Shown: positions 13,951 to 44,421 of the stretch, one piece after another
Position numbering within the stretch: position 1 is the first letter of the stretch
Layout of the letters: each line of letters begins with the position of its first letter
Assembly (NCBI GenBank): GCA_017934955.1
Contig: JAGBIO010000016.1
Coordinates: 1 to 44,421, forward strand
Direction: 5' to 3'
Length of the DNA: 44,421 nucleotides
Origin: Clostridia bacterium
GTDB lineage: Bacteria > Bacillota > Clostridia > TANB77 > RGIG9151
Translations under genes and position numbers: made by a program
Notes under the pieces: generated by a model
What the model was told of the DNA's origin: nothing
The model's database searches: none
Seen by the model: the letters and a program-made list of their open reading frames with translations, nothing else

Positions 13951-14979
13951 ATGGTTAATATAGCGATAATCAGTGATACGCACGATGATATCAGCCTGGT
14001 GAAGCAAGTGATGGAAAGAGACAAAATTGATTATATGATTCATTTGGGCGACAATGTTGAGGATGTTAGTCGGATTTTGAAGGAATATCCCGATTTGAAG
14101 TTGTTTTATATTAAAGGGAATCATGATGATGAAATGGTGACGCCGGCGGAGGAGCTTTTTGAAATCTGCGGGTTGAAAATTTATGCGACGCATGGGCATT
14201 TGTTTGATTCAAAAAAAGATCACAGCGGGTTGATAGAGCGTGGAAAGCAGTATCAGGCGGATATTGTGCTATTTGGGCACAGTCACATTCAGAAGGTTTT
14301 TGAAAAAGACGGTATATTGGCAATTAATCCGGGAAGTTTGAGTGAGTCGCGGGATAAGAATATTGCGGGAAGTTATGTCTTGCTTCAGATTCTAAATGAC
14401 AGAGTGAATGTGATAGCGAGATGGTTTGAGACGGAAGAGTTACTTGGAGTGGAGATTAATACAGTTGTGTTGCAGGAATACAATCCGAAATATAAAGAGT
14501 TGTTTGAAAAGGAAAAAGCGAATTTGTTGAAGTATTTGGGAGATGAAGTGGTTCAAATTGAGCATATCGGAAGCACTTCCATGCCGGGAATTGTTTCGAA
14601 GCCGATTATTGATATTGTGGTTGCGGTAAAGGATTTGGGAAAAATCGGTGAGATTGAGAAGATTTTAACGGAGAAGGGATATATTTATAAAGGCCCGATT
14701 TCGGCGATTGACGATCGTTATCAGTTTTTGGTGGGAAACAGCATTAAACGGGATTATCATATTTATTTTACCGAGTTAAACAGTGAGGTTTGGTATAAGT
14801 TTGTTTTGTATCGGGACTATATGTTATCGCATCCGGAGGAGTTAAAGCAATATGAGATGCTTAAGATGAAATTGGCGAAACTTTATCCGAATGACCGGCG
14901 AAATTATTTAAAACATAAGCAAGTGTATATCAATGAGATTCATAAAAAGGCGAGAAAATTGTATTTAGGTGCTGAATGA
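13951..14979 (+). CDS. YfcE-type metallophosphoesterase fused to a GrpB domain
   Basis: A 342-residue fusion. Residues 1 to about 165 are a calcineurin-like phosphoesterase of the YfcE/MJ0936 class: ISDTHDD, HLGDNVED, KGNHDDE, ATHGH and GHSH motifs in the standard order supply the two-metal site. Residues about 172-342 are a GrpB (UPF0157) domain: VVLQEYNPKYKELFEKEK, the nucleotidyltransferase-like HIGSTSMPGIVSKPIIDIVV and a C-terminal YPNDRRNYLKHKQVYINEI. YfcE enzymes cleave phosphodiesters; GrpB has a nucleotidyltransferase-like fold of uncertain substrate. The joint is in frame with no sign of a frameshift. The RBS AGGGGT precedes ATG. Confidence 0.88.
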   Translation: MVNIAIISDTHDDISLVKQVMERDKIDYMIHLGDNVEDVSRILKEYPDLKLFYIKGNHDDEMVTPAEELFEICGLKIYATHGHLFDSKKDHSGLIERGKQYQADIVLFGHSHIQKVFEKDGILAINPGSLSESRDKNIAGSYVLLQILNDRVNVIARWFETEELLGVEINTVVLQEYNPKYKELFEKEKANLLKYLGDEVVQIEHIGSTSMPGIVSKPIIDIVVAVKDLGKIGEIEKILTEKGYIYKGPISAIDDRYQFLVGNSIKRDYHIYFTELNSEVWYKFVLYRDYMLSHPEELKQYEMLKMKLAKLYPNDRRNYLKHKQVYINEIHKKARKLYLGAE

Positions 14980-15404: not shown

Positions 15405-16046
15405 TTATTCTATCAATTTTTTCATCTTTACTTTTTTCAAATACAAATCTGGCCCCACAATAACGTTCATAAAATTAATCAAAACACATATGAAGTATAT
15501 CAAATCTCCCCAATTAATATTATTTTCAAATCCACCTATATTTAAATACAAGAAAAATAATATAAAGAAATACAACATAGAAAAAAATGGTAGTATAATT
15601 GCTAAAATTACTCGCTTTATATTTGATTTTTCGCCTAATAATGCTATTAGTATTATATTGAAAGCTATTATAAAATTACTTATAAAAAAAGTAAGTGTAG
15701 ATTTACCTATAATGTGTTCAGTTGTTATACCACCTATAGAATAATAAAAATATTTATTTTTTATTGCTTGTATTGAAAGAATTATTAATCCAATTATACT
15801 AATTAATACAAGGATTATCATAATTAACGATATAATTTTAAATTTCTTACGCTTATTATTTCTAAAATTCAAATAAATCAAAATTCCTATACATAAAAAT
15901 ATTGTCCAGCCCCAAATATAGCTAATATATAAGTTCTTTGTAGGTAATAACAATGTTTCAACCTCAAAAGGACGAGCAAAAGAAAACTCAAATATACAAA
16001 CATTAAATGTCAATAAAAATACTATCAATTTATTTAATACGTTCAT
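15405..16046 (-). CDS. Multi-pass membrane protein of unknown function
   Basis: About 213 residues with at least five hydrophobic segments (KLIVFLLTFNVCIFEF, YIWGWTIFLCIGILIYL, IISLIMIILVLISIIGLIIL, TFFISNFIIAFNIILIALL, VILAIILPFFSMLYFFILFFLYL) joined by basic loops (NFRNNKRKKFK). Start chosen at 16046 (MNVLNKL), 12 bases after AAAGGA; in-frame starts at 16058 and 16067 are possible. It begins two bases past the stop of the decayed ToxN gene. Near its end another frame continues openly (CGARFVFEKSKDEKIDR, a further membrane segment, stop at 15310-15312), so the gene may carry a late frameshift. Very AT-rich. No family recognised. Confidence 0.6.
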   Translation of the reverse strand: MNVLNKLIVFLLTFNVCIFEFSFARPFEVETLLLPTKNLYISYIWGWTIFLCIGILIYLNFRNNKRKKFKIISLIMIILVLISIIGLIILSIQAIKNKYFYYSIGGITTEHIIGKSTLTFFISNFIIAFNIILIALLGEKSNIKRVILAIILPFFSMLYFFILFFLYLNIGGFENNINWGDLIYFICVLINFMNVIVGPDLYLKKVKMKKLIE

Positions 16047-16047
16047 T

Positions 16048-16460
16048 CTAATGTTCATTCCTTTCATATTCTAACCATTTTCCCTCAAGCAACTTAAAAT
16101 TACAAATTTTACTTTTATATTCTCCGGAAGTTTGTTACTATTGTATAATGCATATAATTTAAGTGATTTATTTTTAACTTGATTAAAATTAACATTTAAC
16201 AAATATAATTATCCTCTTATCAACGCTTGATATTTTAACTTTGCCAAAATCAATATTTTCTTGGTTAAATTTACTAAGGAATAATTATTAGATAATACAG
16301 AAATCATATTGTTAAAATTAATGACTTTTAACTTGTCATTTTTTATCCTAAAGAAATCTACAACATTTTTCATATCCTGATGTTTGCGTTTAGGACTATA
16401 AAGTAGAGAAAAATATTCGAAATTATTTATTTCAAACAGTATTCCTATAAATAATCGCAT
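16048..16460 (-). pseudogene. Decayed ToxN/AbiQ-family type III toxin
   Basis: The open part (16460-16209) reads RLFIGILFEINNFEYFSLLYSPKRKH, then VVDFFRIKNDKLKVINFNNM. This is the conserved middle of ToxN/AbiQ endoribonucleases (family wording: FIGILFEI, F.PLSSPK.KH.KMKN, INFNNMI). A TAA at 16211-16209 stands where the family usually has glutamine. Beyond it the same frame continues family-like (KSLKLYALYNSNKLPENIK), and a one-base deletion near 16107-16114 shifts the last block, FCNFKLLEGKWLEYE, which is the usual ToxN C-terminus. The first ~35 residues are missing; a palindromic repeat remnant (16466-16545) sits there instead. No antitoxin repeats remain upstream. The family call rests on recalled motifs. 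Confidence 0.75.
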
Positions 16461-16465
16461 TTTTT

Positions 16466-16545
16466 TAGTTTTCTGTGGACAGCCTGAATGCAGTTCCTAC
16501 AATGATTGCAGCATTATTGCAGGAGATATAGTATGAACTGTAATC
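16466..16545. repeat. Remnant of a palindromic MITE-like repeat
   Basis: A degenerate core palindrome (16477-16497, GGACAGCCTGAATGCAGTTCC) followed by CTACAATGATTGCAGCATTATTG and a GAACTGTAA right end, the same right flank as the copy at 27433-27500. It replaces the N-terminal codons of the ToxN-like pseudogene. Confidence 0.7.
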
Positions 16546-16595: not shown

Positions 16596-17072
16596 TTATA
16601 TTTTCTTGCTCAAGAGTATATTTTTCATTTCAAGAATATTATAAAAAGGAATATTTATACCTTTTTTAGCCAATTTTATAACATTCATCGAAACACTTAT
16701 TATATTTTCTTTCAACGCTTCTGTTATCTCTACATCGCTTTCTTTATTTCTGTACACATTTTCAATATATTCTTCTGTAGTAGGGAATATATTCTGAATT
16801 AAAAAAGCTTTTTCTTTTCCTAAAACTTTTCCAAACACAAAATTATATACCCGCTTTTTATTCCTTATCTTTTTATCGTAGATAGCTTTATATTTATCTA
16901 CTTTACTCGATATCGGAACAAACCATATTATTTCTTCATCTTCTAAATCTTTAAAACAAAAATAGCAGGGTCTTTTATTTCCATTTTCTTTATTTTGCAT
17001 CAAACCATATTCTTTAAACAAATCAAAAAAGCTATCTTTTATAAAATAAAACTTTCCGCTTTCTATATCCAT
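16596..17072 (-). CDS. CptN-like type III toxin endoribonuclease
   Basis: A 158-residue protein beginning MDIESGKFYFIKDSFFDLF. The blocks YGLMQNKENGNKRPCYFCFKD, WFVPISSKVDKYKAIYDKK, NFVFGKVLGKEKAFLIQNIFPTT (residues about 24-110, here as landmarks) and a C-terminal basic helix match the CptIN branch of type III toxins, relatives of ToxN that cut RNA and are held inactive by a processed pseudoknot RNA. ATG 17072 follows GAGGG. Directly upstream are a terminator, two 48-base repeats that can form pseudoknots, and a promoter: the full type III order. Toxin translation probably depends on read-through of the terminator. Very AT-rich, unlike flanking house-keeping genes. Confidence 0.85.
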   Translation of the reverse strand: MDIESGKFYFIKDSFFDLFKEYGLMQNKENGNKRPCYFCFKDLEDEEIIWFVPISSKVDKYKAIYDKKIRNKKRVYNFVFGKVLGKEKAFLIQNIFPTTEEYIENVYRNKESDVEITEALKENIISVSMNVIKLAKKGINIPFYNILEMKNILLSKKI

Positions 17073-17087
17073 ATTTCCCTCATTTCT

Positions 17088-17127
17088 AAAAAAAATCTAC
17101 CTTCGATAAAGAAGGTAGATTTTTTTT
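17088..17127 (-). terminator. Terminator between antitoxin RNA and toxin gene
   Basis: A 17-bp stem: eight A plus TCTACCTTC (17088-17104) pairs with GAAGGTAGA plus eight T (17111-17127), 6-base loop. In type III loci such a terminator sets the excess of antitoxin RNA over toxin mRNA. Confidence 0.92.
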
Positions 17128-17129
17128 AT

Positions 17130-17266
17130 ATTTGTCCACCTACACATTTATTTGTCGCAAGTAGGGTTGCGAGTTACATTTGCTCACCTGTACATTTATT
17201 TGTCGCAAACAGGGTTGCGAGTTACATTTGTGAACAAAGATGTTCTAAAAGAACATCTCTATTATT
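17130..17266 (-). ncRNA. Type III antitoxin RNA (CptI-like), two 48-base repeats
   Basis: Two tandem 48-base repeats (17130-17177 and 17178-17225) plus five bases of a third. In RNA sense each holds UCGCAA-loop-UUGCGA, a 6-bp hairpin; five bases of its loop (CCUGU or CCUAC) pair with a downstream ACAGG or GUAGG. This is an H-type pseudoknot in each repeat. The two repeats differ at exactly the two base pairs that keep the second stem intact (GU/AC against AC/GU), which is compensatory change. The RNA is expected to bind and inhibit the downstream toxin and to be cut by it into repeat units. Probable 5' end near 17266 from the promoter position. Confidence 0.85.
17238..17258. promoter_or_regulatory. 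9-bp palindrome at the 5' end of the antitoxin RNA
   Basis: AGATGTTCT-AAA-AGAACATCT, perfect 9-bp arms, just downstream of the promoter. It could be a 5' protective hairpin of the RNA or a repressor site. Confidence 0.6.
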
Positions 17267-17272
17267 ATATCT

Positions 17273-17301
17273 ATAATACACCTTTTTTATTGCAAGGTCA
17301 A
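17273..17301 (-). promoter_or_regulatory. Promoter of the type III toxin-antitoxin locus
   Basis: Minus strand TTGACC (17301-17296), 17-base spacer, TATTAT (17278-17273). Confidence 0.8.
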
Positions 17302-17339: not shown

Positions 17340-17834
17340 ATCGGAACGTCGGGGACGCCGTCCCCCTACAATGATGGCACAAACGCTGTAGGGACACAAT
17401 TCATTGTGTTTTAATTCTAAGCATCTGCCTGTTTCGCGGACACAATAGCAGTCGAAACTTCCCAATCACTTCGTTCTTGGAGTTTCTTTGCACAGGACGT
17501 ACAAGCCATTCACTTCGTTCATGGTGTTATGTCCGTGAATGGTGTCCCTACGATGATTGTACCTTCCTGAATTTGAGTCTGACCCAATGTCATTAAGTTA
17601 AGAACTGAATTATTAAATTCTACCTAAATAAAAGCAGAAACTTGTTGTAGGGACACCATTCATGGTGTCCGTAGAATAGGCACAACAACATTCATTTTTT
17701 CCCCCCAAAAAAAAAATATACATAGATGTGTAGAGTTAGGACAGCATAAATGCTGTCCCTACAAACAAATAGAGATATCCCCAAATACCGTAAGAATGAA
17801 TTAGATAAGTTCTTAACTTAATGACATTGAATCT
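17340..17834. repeat. Cluster of palindromic repeats
   Basis: No gene in this ~500-base stretch. It contains a GGGGACGCCGTCCCC palindrome (17353-17367), disrupted GGACACAAT-type copies (17394 onward), a ~115-base module (17420-17533) whose inverted, diverged copy is at 43285-43400, a GGACACCAT-TC-ATGGTGTCC core near 17652-17671, and a GGACAGCAT core near 17738-17757. Ends with TCAGACT-type and TTAACTTAATGACATTG motifs occur at 17573-17603 and, inverted, at 17808-17834. Confidence 0.75.
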
Positions 17835-32955: not shown

Positions 32956-33840
32956 CTACATAATTTCAATGGTTAAGGCAAGCCATTTCCCGTCAATTTT
33001 GATAAATGGGATGTGGTAGTGAGACGGAAAGACAATTTCTTTTCTTCCTTTCTTTTGGATATAGTCGAAGGAAATTTCTCCTTCGAAGGCGTTTTCGGCT
33101 GTTTTTCGGAGGTTTGAATTTGTTATATTTCGAAAGTCGTAAGAGTCGTGGGCGTACCAGTCGTTGAAGAAGTTACGGATTTCTTTGTAGTAGGACGAGT
33201 TTTTATAAAGATGTTCGGAAAGTTCAGAGAATTTCGCGTCGTTTGTGATGTATCTTGCGTAGAGTTTTGCGGTTTCTGTTAATTCTTCCTGTAAGGTAAG
33301 CTGTTCTTCGGAAGAAAGCGGAAGGTTTGCGATAACGTTTTTTCCTTCAGTAGCAATTTCACATGGCGAATTTTCCGGTGTAGTTACCGAAATTTCCGGG
33401 AGAAAAAGATAATTATTGATTTGATAGGTTTCTTGTTTTGGCGCGTATTCGGGGTCGGCTAAGAGGGAATAAGAAGCGGGATATTGTGTGGAAACAAGAG
33501 ATTCCTTTCCCAAAAGTTTTCCTTCGATTTCTACTTTTGAAGCTGTCGGAACGGTGATGGTAATGGGCGGAATTTTATTTTCCGCTAAAGTAATGTTCCA
33601 TTCTTCCTTCCGTTTTTGTGCTTCTACTATCAAAATGCAAGTATTTTCATGATAGATTTCGAATCGGTTTTCTTTATCGGTTTTGACAATTTGAAAGTTA
33701 TCCACATCCGGAACCAAGTTATTCACATATTGAGAAATCGCGGTATTGGGGAAGGAGTCTTCATAATTTGACAAGGAAACCCAAAGAGTTGTCCAAAGTG
33801 CAATCATAAGAACGATCGTAAGTATAAAGAATTTTTTCAA
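32956..33840 (-). CDS. Membrane-anchored extracytoplasmic protein, unknown function
   Basis: 294 residues: one N-terminal transmembrane or signal segment (KKFFILTIVLMIALWTTLWVSL) and a large polar outer region. The second half (KLYARYITNDAKFSELSEHLYKNSSYYKEIRNFFNDWYAHDSYDF onward, landmark residues about 195-240) ends in a strand-rich segment IPFIKIDGKWLALTIE, reminiscent of NTF2-like/SnoaL-shaped C-terminal domains; that is only a pattern impression. The start is TTG 33840 with AAAGGA nine bases upstream. The frame stays open through the 54-bp repeat array to 34221, but those codons are repeat sequence, not protein. Last gene of the murC cluster. Confidence 0.7.
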   Translation of the reverse strand: MKKFFILTIVLMIALWTTLWVSLSNYEDSFPNTAISQYVNNLVPDVDNFQIVKTDKENRFEIYHENTCILIVEAQKRKEEWNITLAENKIPPITITVPTASKVEIEGKLLGKESLVSTQYPASYSLLADPEYAPKQETYQINNYLFLPEISVTTPENSPCEIATEGKNVIANLPLSSEEQLTLQEELTETAKLYARYITNDAKFSELSEHLYKNSSYYKEIRNFFNDWYAHDSYDFRNITNSNLRKTAENAFEGEISFDYIQKKGRKEIVFPSHYHIPFIKIDGKWLALTIEIM

Positions 33841-33895
33841 TGTAATTATTCCTTTCTTTTGGTAGGTTGCTATTTTAATGCTGTCTGCACAAACC

Positions 33896-34165
33896 GCTTT
33901 CTGCCGATACTTTTCAAATGGGACAGCATGAATGCTGTCCGTACAAAGCGTTTTTTGCCGATACTTTTCAAATGGGACAGCATAAATGCTGCCCGTACAA
34001 AGCGTTTTTTGCCGATATTTTTCAAATAGGACAGCATGAATGCTGTCCGTACAAATTGCTTTCTGTTGATATTTTCCTAATAGGACACAATAAATTGTGT
34101 CCGTACAAAGCGCTTTCTGCTGATATTTTTCAAATAGGACAGCATAAATGCTGTCCGTACAAATT
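33896..34165. repeat. Tandem array of five 54-bp palindrome units
   Basis: Units at 33896, 33950, 34004, 34058 and 34112, each TTTCTGCCGATATTTTTCAAAT-like spacer, a 20-base palindrome and GTACAAAGC. Four units carry the GGACAGCAT core and one (34058-34111) the GGACACAAT core, again with both arms changed together. A half palindrome precedes the first unit. The array fills the gap between two genes of one operon and touches the stop codon of the glycosidase gene. Confidence 0.92.
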
Positions 34166-35156
34166 ATTTTGTTACGATAAAGGCGGCAGGCATTCTGCGT
34201 GAGCCGTATAAAGAAGCGCAAGTATTAATGATTTCATCTTGATAAACCATAATAGAGGAAGACCCGCCGTCTAAGTTTGCGGCATTATAGGCCCCATATT
34301 CCATCATAATTTTAATACAATCTTCGTAAGTGGCACCTAAACTTTGTGCCTGTCTTCCGTCAATGACTAATAATAAAACAGCCCCGTCTTTTCTTTGCCC
34401 GATGACGGTACGAGGATTTAGCCCACCGCTGACTCCGGAAAATTTCTGTGCTTTTCCGTTTACAATAAAAACAGGTCCGAATGTTACGGCATCCCGCATT
34501 CCTAATTCTAAGGCTTTTTTTCCGGACATTCTTCCGACAATGAGTTTGTTTTCTTGATTAAAACCGATTAAAGTATCAACACGGTCTTCGGTTCCGTTTA
34601 TGATTTGAGAGTCTTTTATCATCAATCCGAGCGGTTGTCCGCCTTTTCCGACACCGTTTACATCTTCAAAACCACCGGCATTAATTCCGGCAATTGCATT
34701 TTCTTGTTTAACGAATTCTTCTACTTTTTTTCCCATCTTTTCGCTATCAAAAGAAGAGAGTGCCGCTAATTTTATACGGGAAGGATCTTGTATAATCATT
34801 AACTTTCCTTTAAATGTTTTTCCGGAGATGTCGATTATTTCAATATTCTCTTTCTCGGTGGCATTTTCTTCAAAAACAAAGCCGACGTCTGAAACTTCTT
34901 CTGAGTCCATAACTGCATTGTTTTCAAGAATTTGATTGATTTCTTTTTCTGAAAAATACAACTTCGGAATAAATTTTAAGGCACTTGTTTCTAAAAAAGT
35001 AGTGACAAGAATATCCTTCGCGATAGGGGAAGGACCCTTAAAAGTAATGGTAATACATCCGATTAAAAACAGTAAGACTAATAAAAGAAATATTAAAAAA
35101 GCCAAGAAAAATTGCGATAGTTTCGGCAATATTTTCTTTTCTGCTGTTGTTTCCAT
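34164..35156 (-). CDS. Phosphodiester glycosidase (NAGPA) family protein
   Basis: 330 residues: N-terminal membrane anchor (FFLAFLIFLLLVLLFLIGCITITF) then the NAGPA domain found in bacterial exopolysaccharide and phosphodiester glycosidase proteins. Recognisable blocks are IAGINAGGFEDVNGVGKG, MRDAVTFGPVFIVNGKAQ, LNPRTVIGQRKDGAVLLLVIDGRQ and NAANLDGGSSSIMVY, the last holding the conserved Asp-Gly-Gly-Ser. ATG 35156 follows GGAGGGTTTT. It acts outside the membrane, probably on glycan phosphodiesters; the exact substrate is unknown. It starts 18 bases after the GT2-GtrA gene ends. Confidence 0.9.
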   Translation of the reverse strand: METTAEKKILPKLSQFFLAFLIFLLLVLLFLIGCITITFKGPSPIAKDILVTTFLETSALKFIPKLYFSEKEINQILENNAVMDSEEVSDVGFVFEENATEKENIEIIDISGKTFKGKLMIIQDPSRIKLAALSSFDSEKMGKKVEEFVKQENAIAGINAGGFEDVNGVGKGGQPLGLMIKDSQIINGTEDRVDTLIGFNQENKLIVGRMSGKKALELGMRDAVTFGPVFIVNGKAQKFSGVSGGLNPRTVIGQRKDGAVLLLVIDGRQAQSLGATYEDCIKIMMEYGAYNAANLDGGSSSIMVYQDEIINTCASLYGSRRMPAAFIVTK

Positions 35157-44176: not shown

Positions 44177-44421
44177 GGACACAATAAATTGTGTCCGTAC
44201 GGAGGAAAAGAGGCAGGATAAATATGTGGACAGCATGAATGCTGTCCGTACGGATAGGGAGAGGCATAATGGATATGTGGACAGCATGAATGCTGTCCGT
44301 ACGGAGGAAAAGAGGCAGGATAAATATGTGGACAGCATGAATGCTGTCCGTACGGATAGGGAGAGGCATAATGGATATGTGGACAGCATGAATGCTGTCC
44401 GTACGGATAGAGAGAGGCATA
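44177..44421. repeat. Tandem array of 51-bp palindrome units, cut by window end
   Basis: Units start at 44177, 44228, 44279, 44330 and 44381. Each is a 20-base palindrome plus a 31-base spacer. The first core is the GGACACAAT type, the others GGACAGCAT. Spacers alternate between GTACGGAGGAAAAGAGGCAGG and GTACGGATAGGGAGAGGCATA types (order A, B, A, B, B). Unit length divisible by three keeps reading frames open, which yields false ORFs. Confidence 0.93.

Follow-up and report, generated by a model that had tools for sequence, protein, structure and literature searches.

Why does a broken gene for one kind of type III toxin lie beside an apparently complete toxin-antitoxin (TA) locus of another kind? 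The question was raised at positions 16048-16545 of the window (the whole stretch of 44,421 nt that was analysed, from a Clostridia-like genome), for which the original prediction had proposed a dead ToxN/AbiQ toxin gene next to a live type III locus. The explanation that we favour with high confidence is that a decayed toxIN remnant lies beside an intact CptIN locus.

The identity of the remnant was established by profile searches and by alignment. An 83-aa ORF on the minus strand (16460-16209) matched the Pfam ToxN_toxin profile (PF13958, cut-off 25 bits) with 65.7 bits (E 7e-18) and the PADLOC AbiQ profile with E 1e-10, and its best PDB matches were solved ToxN chains (7D8O, E 8e-4; 2XD0, 1.4e-3; 4ATO, 0.06). 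In a genome-wide profile search the ORFs either side of an in-frame TAA were joined into one ToxN match, which carried on past the stop, spanned profile positions 25-139 with that one TAA, and reached 78.5 bits; both the ToxN/AbiQ core wording and the family-like continuation beyond the stop had been recognised in the original prediction. Frameshift-aware alignment of the raw DNA with three intact ToxN proteins gave a single colinear match, from window 16466 to 16057 against ToxN residues 32-168, scoring 368-400 where shuffled DNA gave 41 at most. The remnant shares 78-80 identities over 133-137 positions with intact Clostridia ToxN, about 58-62% identity. An absence of any relation to ToxN, or a block order inconsistent with one gene, had been named beforehand as grounds for abandoning the prediction; the blocks proved related and colinear. 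Positions 16466-16048 of the minus strand are thereby confirmed, as first read, to be one decayed toxN/abiQ gene that runs from about residue 32 to the C-terminus. Its protein blocks match those of the ToxIN/AbiQ family (PF13958; PDB 2XD0, 4ATO, 7D8O) in the same order, with 65.7-78.5 bits against the family profile, but unlike members of that family it is truncated, carries a nonsense codon and a frameshift, and has neither ToxI repeats nor a promoter.

Exactly two lesions break the frame in the alignment. A TAA at 16209-16211 (minus strand) replaces a codon that specifies Gln in the homologues (KEQL), and a 2-nt codon marks a one-base deletion at approximately 16117-16118, where the frame changes before the CNFKLLE block; the original prediction had called both, the first as a nonsense codon in place of an expected glutamine and the second as a deletion ahead of the C-terminal block. 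The gene ends with TAG at 16048-16050, the coordinate from which the first reading had started. At the other end the N-terminal ∼31 codons are missing and a dispersed palindromic repeat stands in their place, so that a complete ORF is lost through 5′ truncation, nonsense codon and frameshift together. In most intact homologues examined, three 36-nt ToxI units lie directly upstream of the toxin gene. A search of the window with the ToxI core, allowing up to 3 mismatches, gave no match, in agreement with the earlier statement that the antitoxin repeats are gone, and neither tandem ToxI pseudoknot repeats nor their terminator precede the remnant. Directly after the remnant comes a hydrophobic 220-aa ORF on the minus strand (15405-16067, likely start 16046), for which no family was found and which had no relative at the ToxN loci; it is possibly a former co-passenger of toxN.

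Substitutions told a similar story. Of 56 sites whose conservation across 51 intact homologues is 95% or higher, 13 are altered in the remnant, whereas the intact homologues themselves average 0.75 such changes and reach 8 at most; the terminal branch of the remnant in the tree is 0.6 long (median 0.1). The dN/dS of the remnant against intact homologues was 0.13-0.26, with dS near saturation; corresponding values were 0.06-0.10 for the intact toxN that the same genome carries on contig C29 and 0.06-0.28 for intact pairs overall. Since intact pairs give values as high as those of the remnant, dN/dS is no guide here to whether a gene is dead or intact, and either most of the divergence preceded the death of the gene or that death was recent. 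A dN/dS below 1, together with an 83-aa ORF that is still open from an ATG at 16460 and keeps the central ToxN segment with its S-P-K stretch, could also be read as a sign that the remnant functions as a short peptide, for example as a decoy binding ToxI or CptI RNA; we consider this very improbable, as the ORF has no evident ribosome-binding site, its product lacks the N-terminal strand and the C-terminal block, and the conserved sites noted above are broken. An assembly or sequencing error that makes an intact toxN look dead can for practical purposes be dismissed: the genome is indeed a 35-contig draft, but the error would have to account for three independent lesions (5′ loss, nonsense codon and frameshift) as well as the conserved-site substitutions and the loss of the antitoxin. 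The remnant most probably makes no working toxin, although its 83-aa fragment may still be expressed.

The repeat that takes the place of the toxN 5′ end is a decayed, REP-like palindromic element at 16469-16545 (core 16477-16496); its stretch 16477-16543 aligns over 67 nt with a further genomic copy at 78% identity. Its palindrome family, GGACAGCATGAATGCTGTCC, was matched with up to 3 mismatches 653 times on the forward and 641 times on the reverse strand of the 1.57-Mb genome, and since the sequence is a near-palindrome these matches correspond to about 650 sites. The window holds 22 copies (3193, 11491, 11531, 12554, 16477, 17739, 21278, 21318, 22369, 24765, 24804, 27180, 27220, 27433, and within 33921-34156 and 44228-44400), 18 of them outside ORFs of at least 120 aa. 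The composite element, palindrome plus about 50 further bases, has at least about 40 copies, as counted from the part of the candidates that was scored. The palindrome was absent from seven related genomes, including one of the same genus, and we found no paper that prints it. REP/REPIN elements and their RAYT transposases have been described (PMC8049555, PMC3116915), and the palindrome resembles them in being short, extragenic, present in hundreds of copies and often paired about 40 nt apart. A RAYT-like gene at C22:48563 (L179 1384-1878) lies between copies of the palindrome, each about 70 nt away or less, an anatomy like that of REP/REPIN-RAYT systems (PMC8049555); unlike an established RAYT, however, this candidate transposase gene scores 64 bits against the NCBIfam REP-associated tyrosine transposase model, below the cut-off of 80. 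A second RAYT-like gene, on contig C32, has no such palindromes nearby. Because of the flanked RAYT-like gene, the palindrome looks like a REP/REPIN family that has undergone a species-specific expansion.

A further palindrome family, GGACACAATNNATTGTGTCC / GGACACCATTCATGGTGTCC, is related to the first, frequently lies close to its copies and occurs in the window at 17651, 21427, 21472, 22416, 22461, 27353, 34083, 37906 and 44177. Palindrome-based tandem arrays with 54-nt and 51/102-nt units were also seen at 33877-34163, within a predicted ORF (32956-34221), and at 44192-44421.

These findings modify one part of the original prediction, that the first ∼35 codons of toxN had been replaced by a MITE-like repeat. 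The 5′ replacement stands, at ∼31 codons, whereas the repeat belongs to a dispersed, REP-like family and is not specific to the locus. With about 650 dispersed copies in the genome, a palindrome at the truncation says little about how toxN died; its position at the end point of the deletion weakly suggests a repeat-mediated rearrangement.

The live neighbour was identified as CptIN. The intact toxin gene, cptN (16596-17072, minus strand, 158 aa), matched the NCBIfam CptIN model (NF047359, cut-off 90 bits) with 168 bits and PDB 4RMO, the CptN of E. rectale, with E 8e-19; TenpIN and ToxIN were ruled out as its identity by these two matches. Upstream, and likewise on the minus strand, are a sigma-70-type promoter (17273-17301, TTGACC-17-TATTAT), a leader hairpin (17238-17258) that is present in relatives too, the antitoxin cptI (17126-17221) with two 48-nt units (17174-17221 and 17126-17173) that each form an H-type pseudoknot, and a terminator with a perfect 18-bp stem between cptI and cptN (17087-17128). 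Stem 1 is UCGCAA/UUGCGA in both repeats, whereas stem 2 differs between them by a compensatory change within the window, being CCUGU/ACAGG in one repeat and CCUAC/GUAGG in its partner. In an alignment of 15 units from the window and related loci, chosen by eye among similar-looking and non-independent units, 97% of cells were paired and 7 of 11 pairs showed two-sided changes, so that each of the two helices has covariation behind it; slid alignments gave 30-49%, none of 500 shuffles was equally good, and the folding z-score of CptI was -7.4. The layout of promoter, leader, repeats and terminator is common to related CptIN loci.

The repeat topology agrees with the CptI fold described for Eubacterium rectale CptIN (4RMO, PMC4627078). 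CptN of the window is homologous to the E. rectale toxin over residues 7-140, and the two loci share two ∼45-48-nt H-type pseudoknot repeats in tandem, with an A-rich second loop, followed by a terminator and the toxin; they differ in repeat sequence (48 nt with a UCGCAA/UUGCGA stem in the window), as expected for co-varying, cognate-specific antitoxins. This likeness concerns the live neighbour and not the toxN remnant. Every part needed for CptIN function is present, in the order promoter, repeats, terminator, toxin, and by analogy the locus presumably functions. The original prediction that the dead toxN has a live type III neighbour from another family was borne out. Elsewhere in the genome a second, divergent CptN-like gene (C10:479-919, on a 4.4-kb contig) scored 56 bits, below the cut-off.

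The genome-wide profile search also located an intact toxIN on contig C29 (about 68810-69440; L061 6811-7440), whose toxN shares 67% DNA identity with the remnant and which can be taken as its old paralogue. At this identity, and since the tree does not support the two as sisters, the remnant is not a recent duplicate of C29 toxN. Nor do the palindromic repeats at the two loci appear to share an origin: they have opposite orientations relative to toxN and so look like separate insertions. A phage or plasmid source was likewise rejected, the ToxN matches being distant only and CptN having no match in viral contigs. The C29 locus has one recognisable ToxI unit, against three in most homologues, and its toxin is one Asn short in the NFNNMIPV motif.

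The original prediction had further proposed that two type III families at one spot reflect serial replacement or a hotspot; CptIN would in that case have inserted in or beside toxIN and taken over its role. The remnant and CptIN, 130 bp from each other, do share an AT-rich island, whose GC content is 22-28% where that of the flanks is 38-40%. Of 146 related genomes, 49 have ToxN and 38 have CptN. The 99 ToxN-CptN pairs from genomes that have both were compared with a Poisson expectation, from hand-compiled counts and ignoring contig ends and relatedness: 7 pairs lay within 21 kb where 2.44 were expected, and with the window genome left out 6 where 2.33 were expected (P 0.03). Within 10 kb, where 4 pairs were observed and 1.16 expected, the excess is not significant when the window genome is left out (3 against 1.11, P 0.10). 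No CptN was seen in the DNA examined around about 80 ToxN loci from other GTDB genomes, a weak negative because CptN density predicts only about 0.2 there. The nearby pairs in two related genomes (G137 and G124) have other genes in between, and the window genome keeps an intact toxIN elsewhere. Closeness of ToxN and CptN is thus at most a weak tendency, slightly above chance. Serial replacement or a hotspot was not borne out by the 10-kb counts and the ToxN loci of other genomes, and we regard it as unlikely.

The comparison of the same locus in relatives that had been suggested as a check was run on a genome of the same genus (G001) and one of the same family (G002). In neither are the flanking genes syntenic, and an intact allele at the same site was sought there and rejected, both genomes lacking the neighbourhood as well as ToxN; lacking synteny, these genomes do not reveal which event came first. 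That the spot is a true turnover site, where modules of different type III families replace each other with the help of recombination between REP-like palindromes, is more doubtful still.

The history favoured here, a toxIN that decayed beside an intact CptIN, runs as follows. The locus earlier held a toxIN, with ToxI RNA repeats upstream of the phage-defence endoribonuclease toxin ToxN/AbiQ. A rearrangement at the REP-like palindrome would then have taken about 31 codons from the start of toxN, together with the promoter and the ToxI repeats; we infer this deletion rather than see it, since no close relative supplied an intact same-site copy. The remaining toxN, deprived of its own start, carries the nonsense codon, the one-base deletion and the conserved-site substitutions that the alignments display. 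With toxin start and antitoxin lost in one event, and with intact toxIN and CptIN still in the genome, the loss of toxN need have carried no addiction cost. CptIN, by homology to its E. rectale counterpart, would act as a classical type III TA system in which CptN cuts out the CptI pseudoknots, which in turn bind and inactivate CptN.

Such a remnant is ordinary in its surroundings. About a dozen related genomes have ToxN matches with stops or truncations, and several CptN matches show the same; in this order a dead type III toxin is a routine finding, and it is because broken toxN copies are common that the present reading is an ordinary one. Literature searches yielded no description of a toxN pseudogene next to a CptIN locus. 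The remnant may be viewed as a tidy relic of a lost type III TA module, which at a REP-like repeat is missing its antitoxin, its promoter and the start of its toxin, and it illustrates the turnover of defence and TA genes while altering no view on its own. Of more use, perhaps, is a by-product of the analysis, the apparently species-specific expansion in this lineage of a palindrome putatively associated with a RAYT. Elsewhere in the window, a single ORF at 13951-14979 apparently joins a YfcE-type phosphodiesterase to a GrpB-type domain, as read from the sequence.
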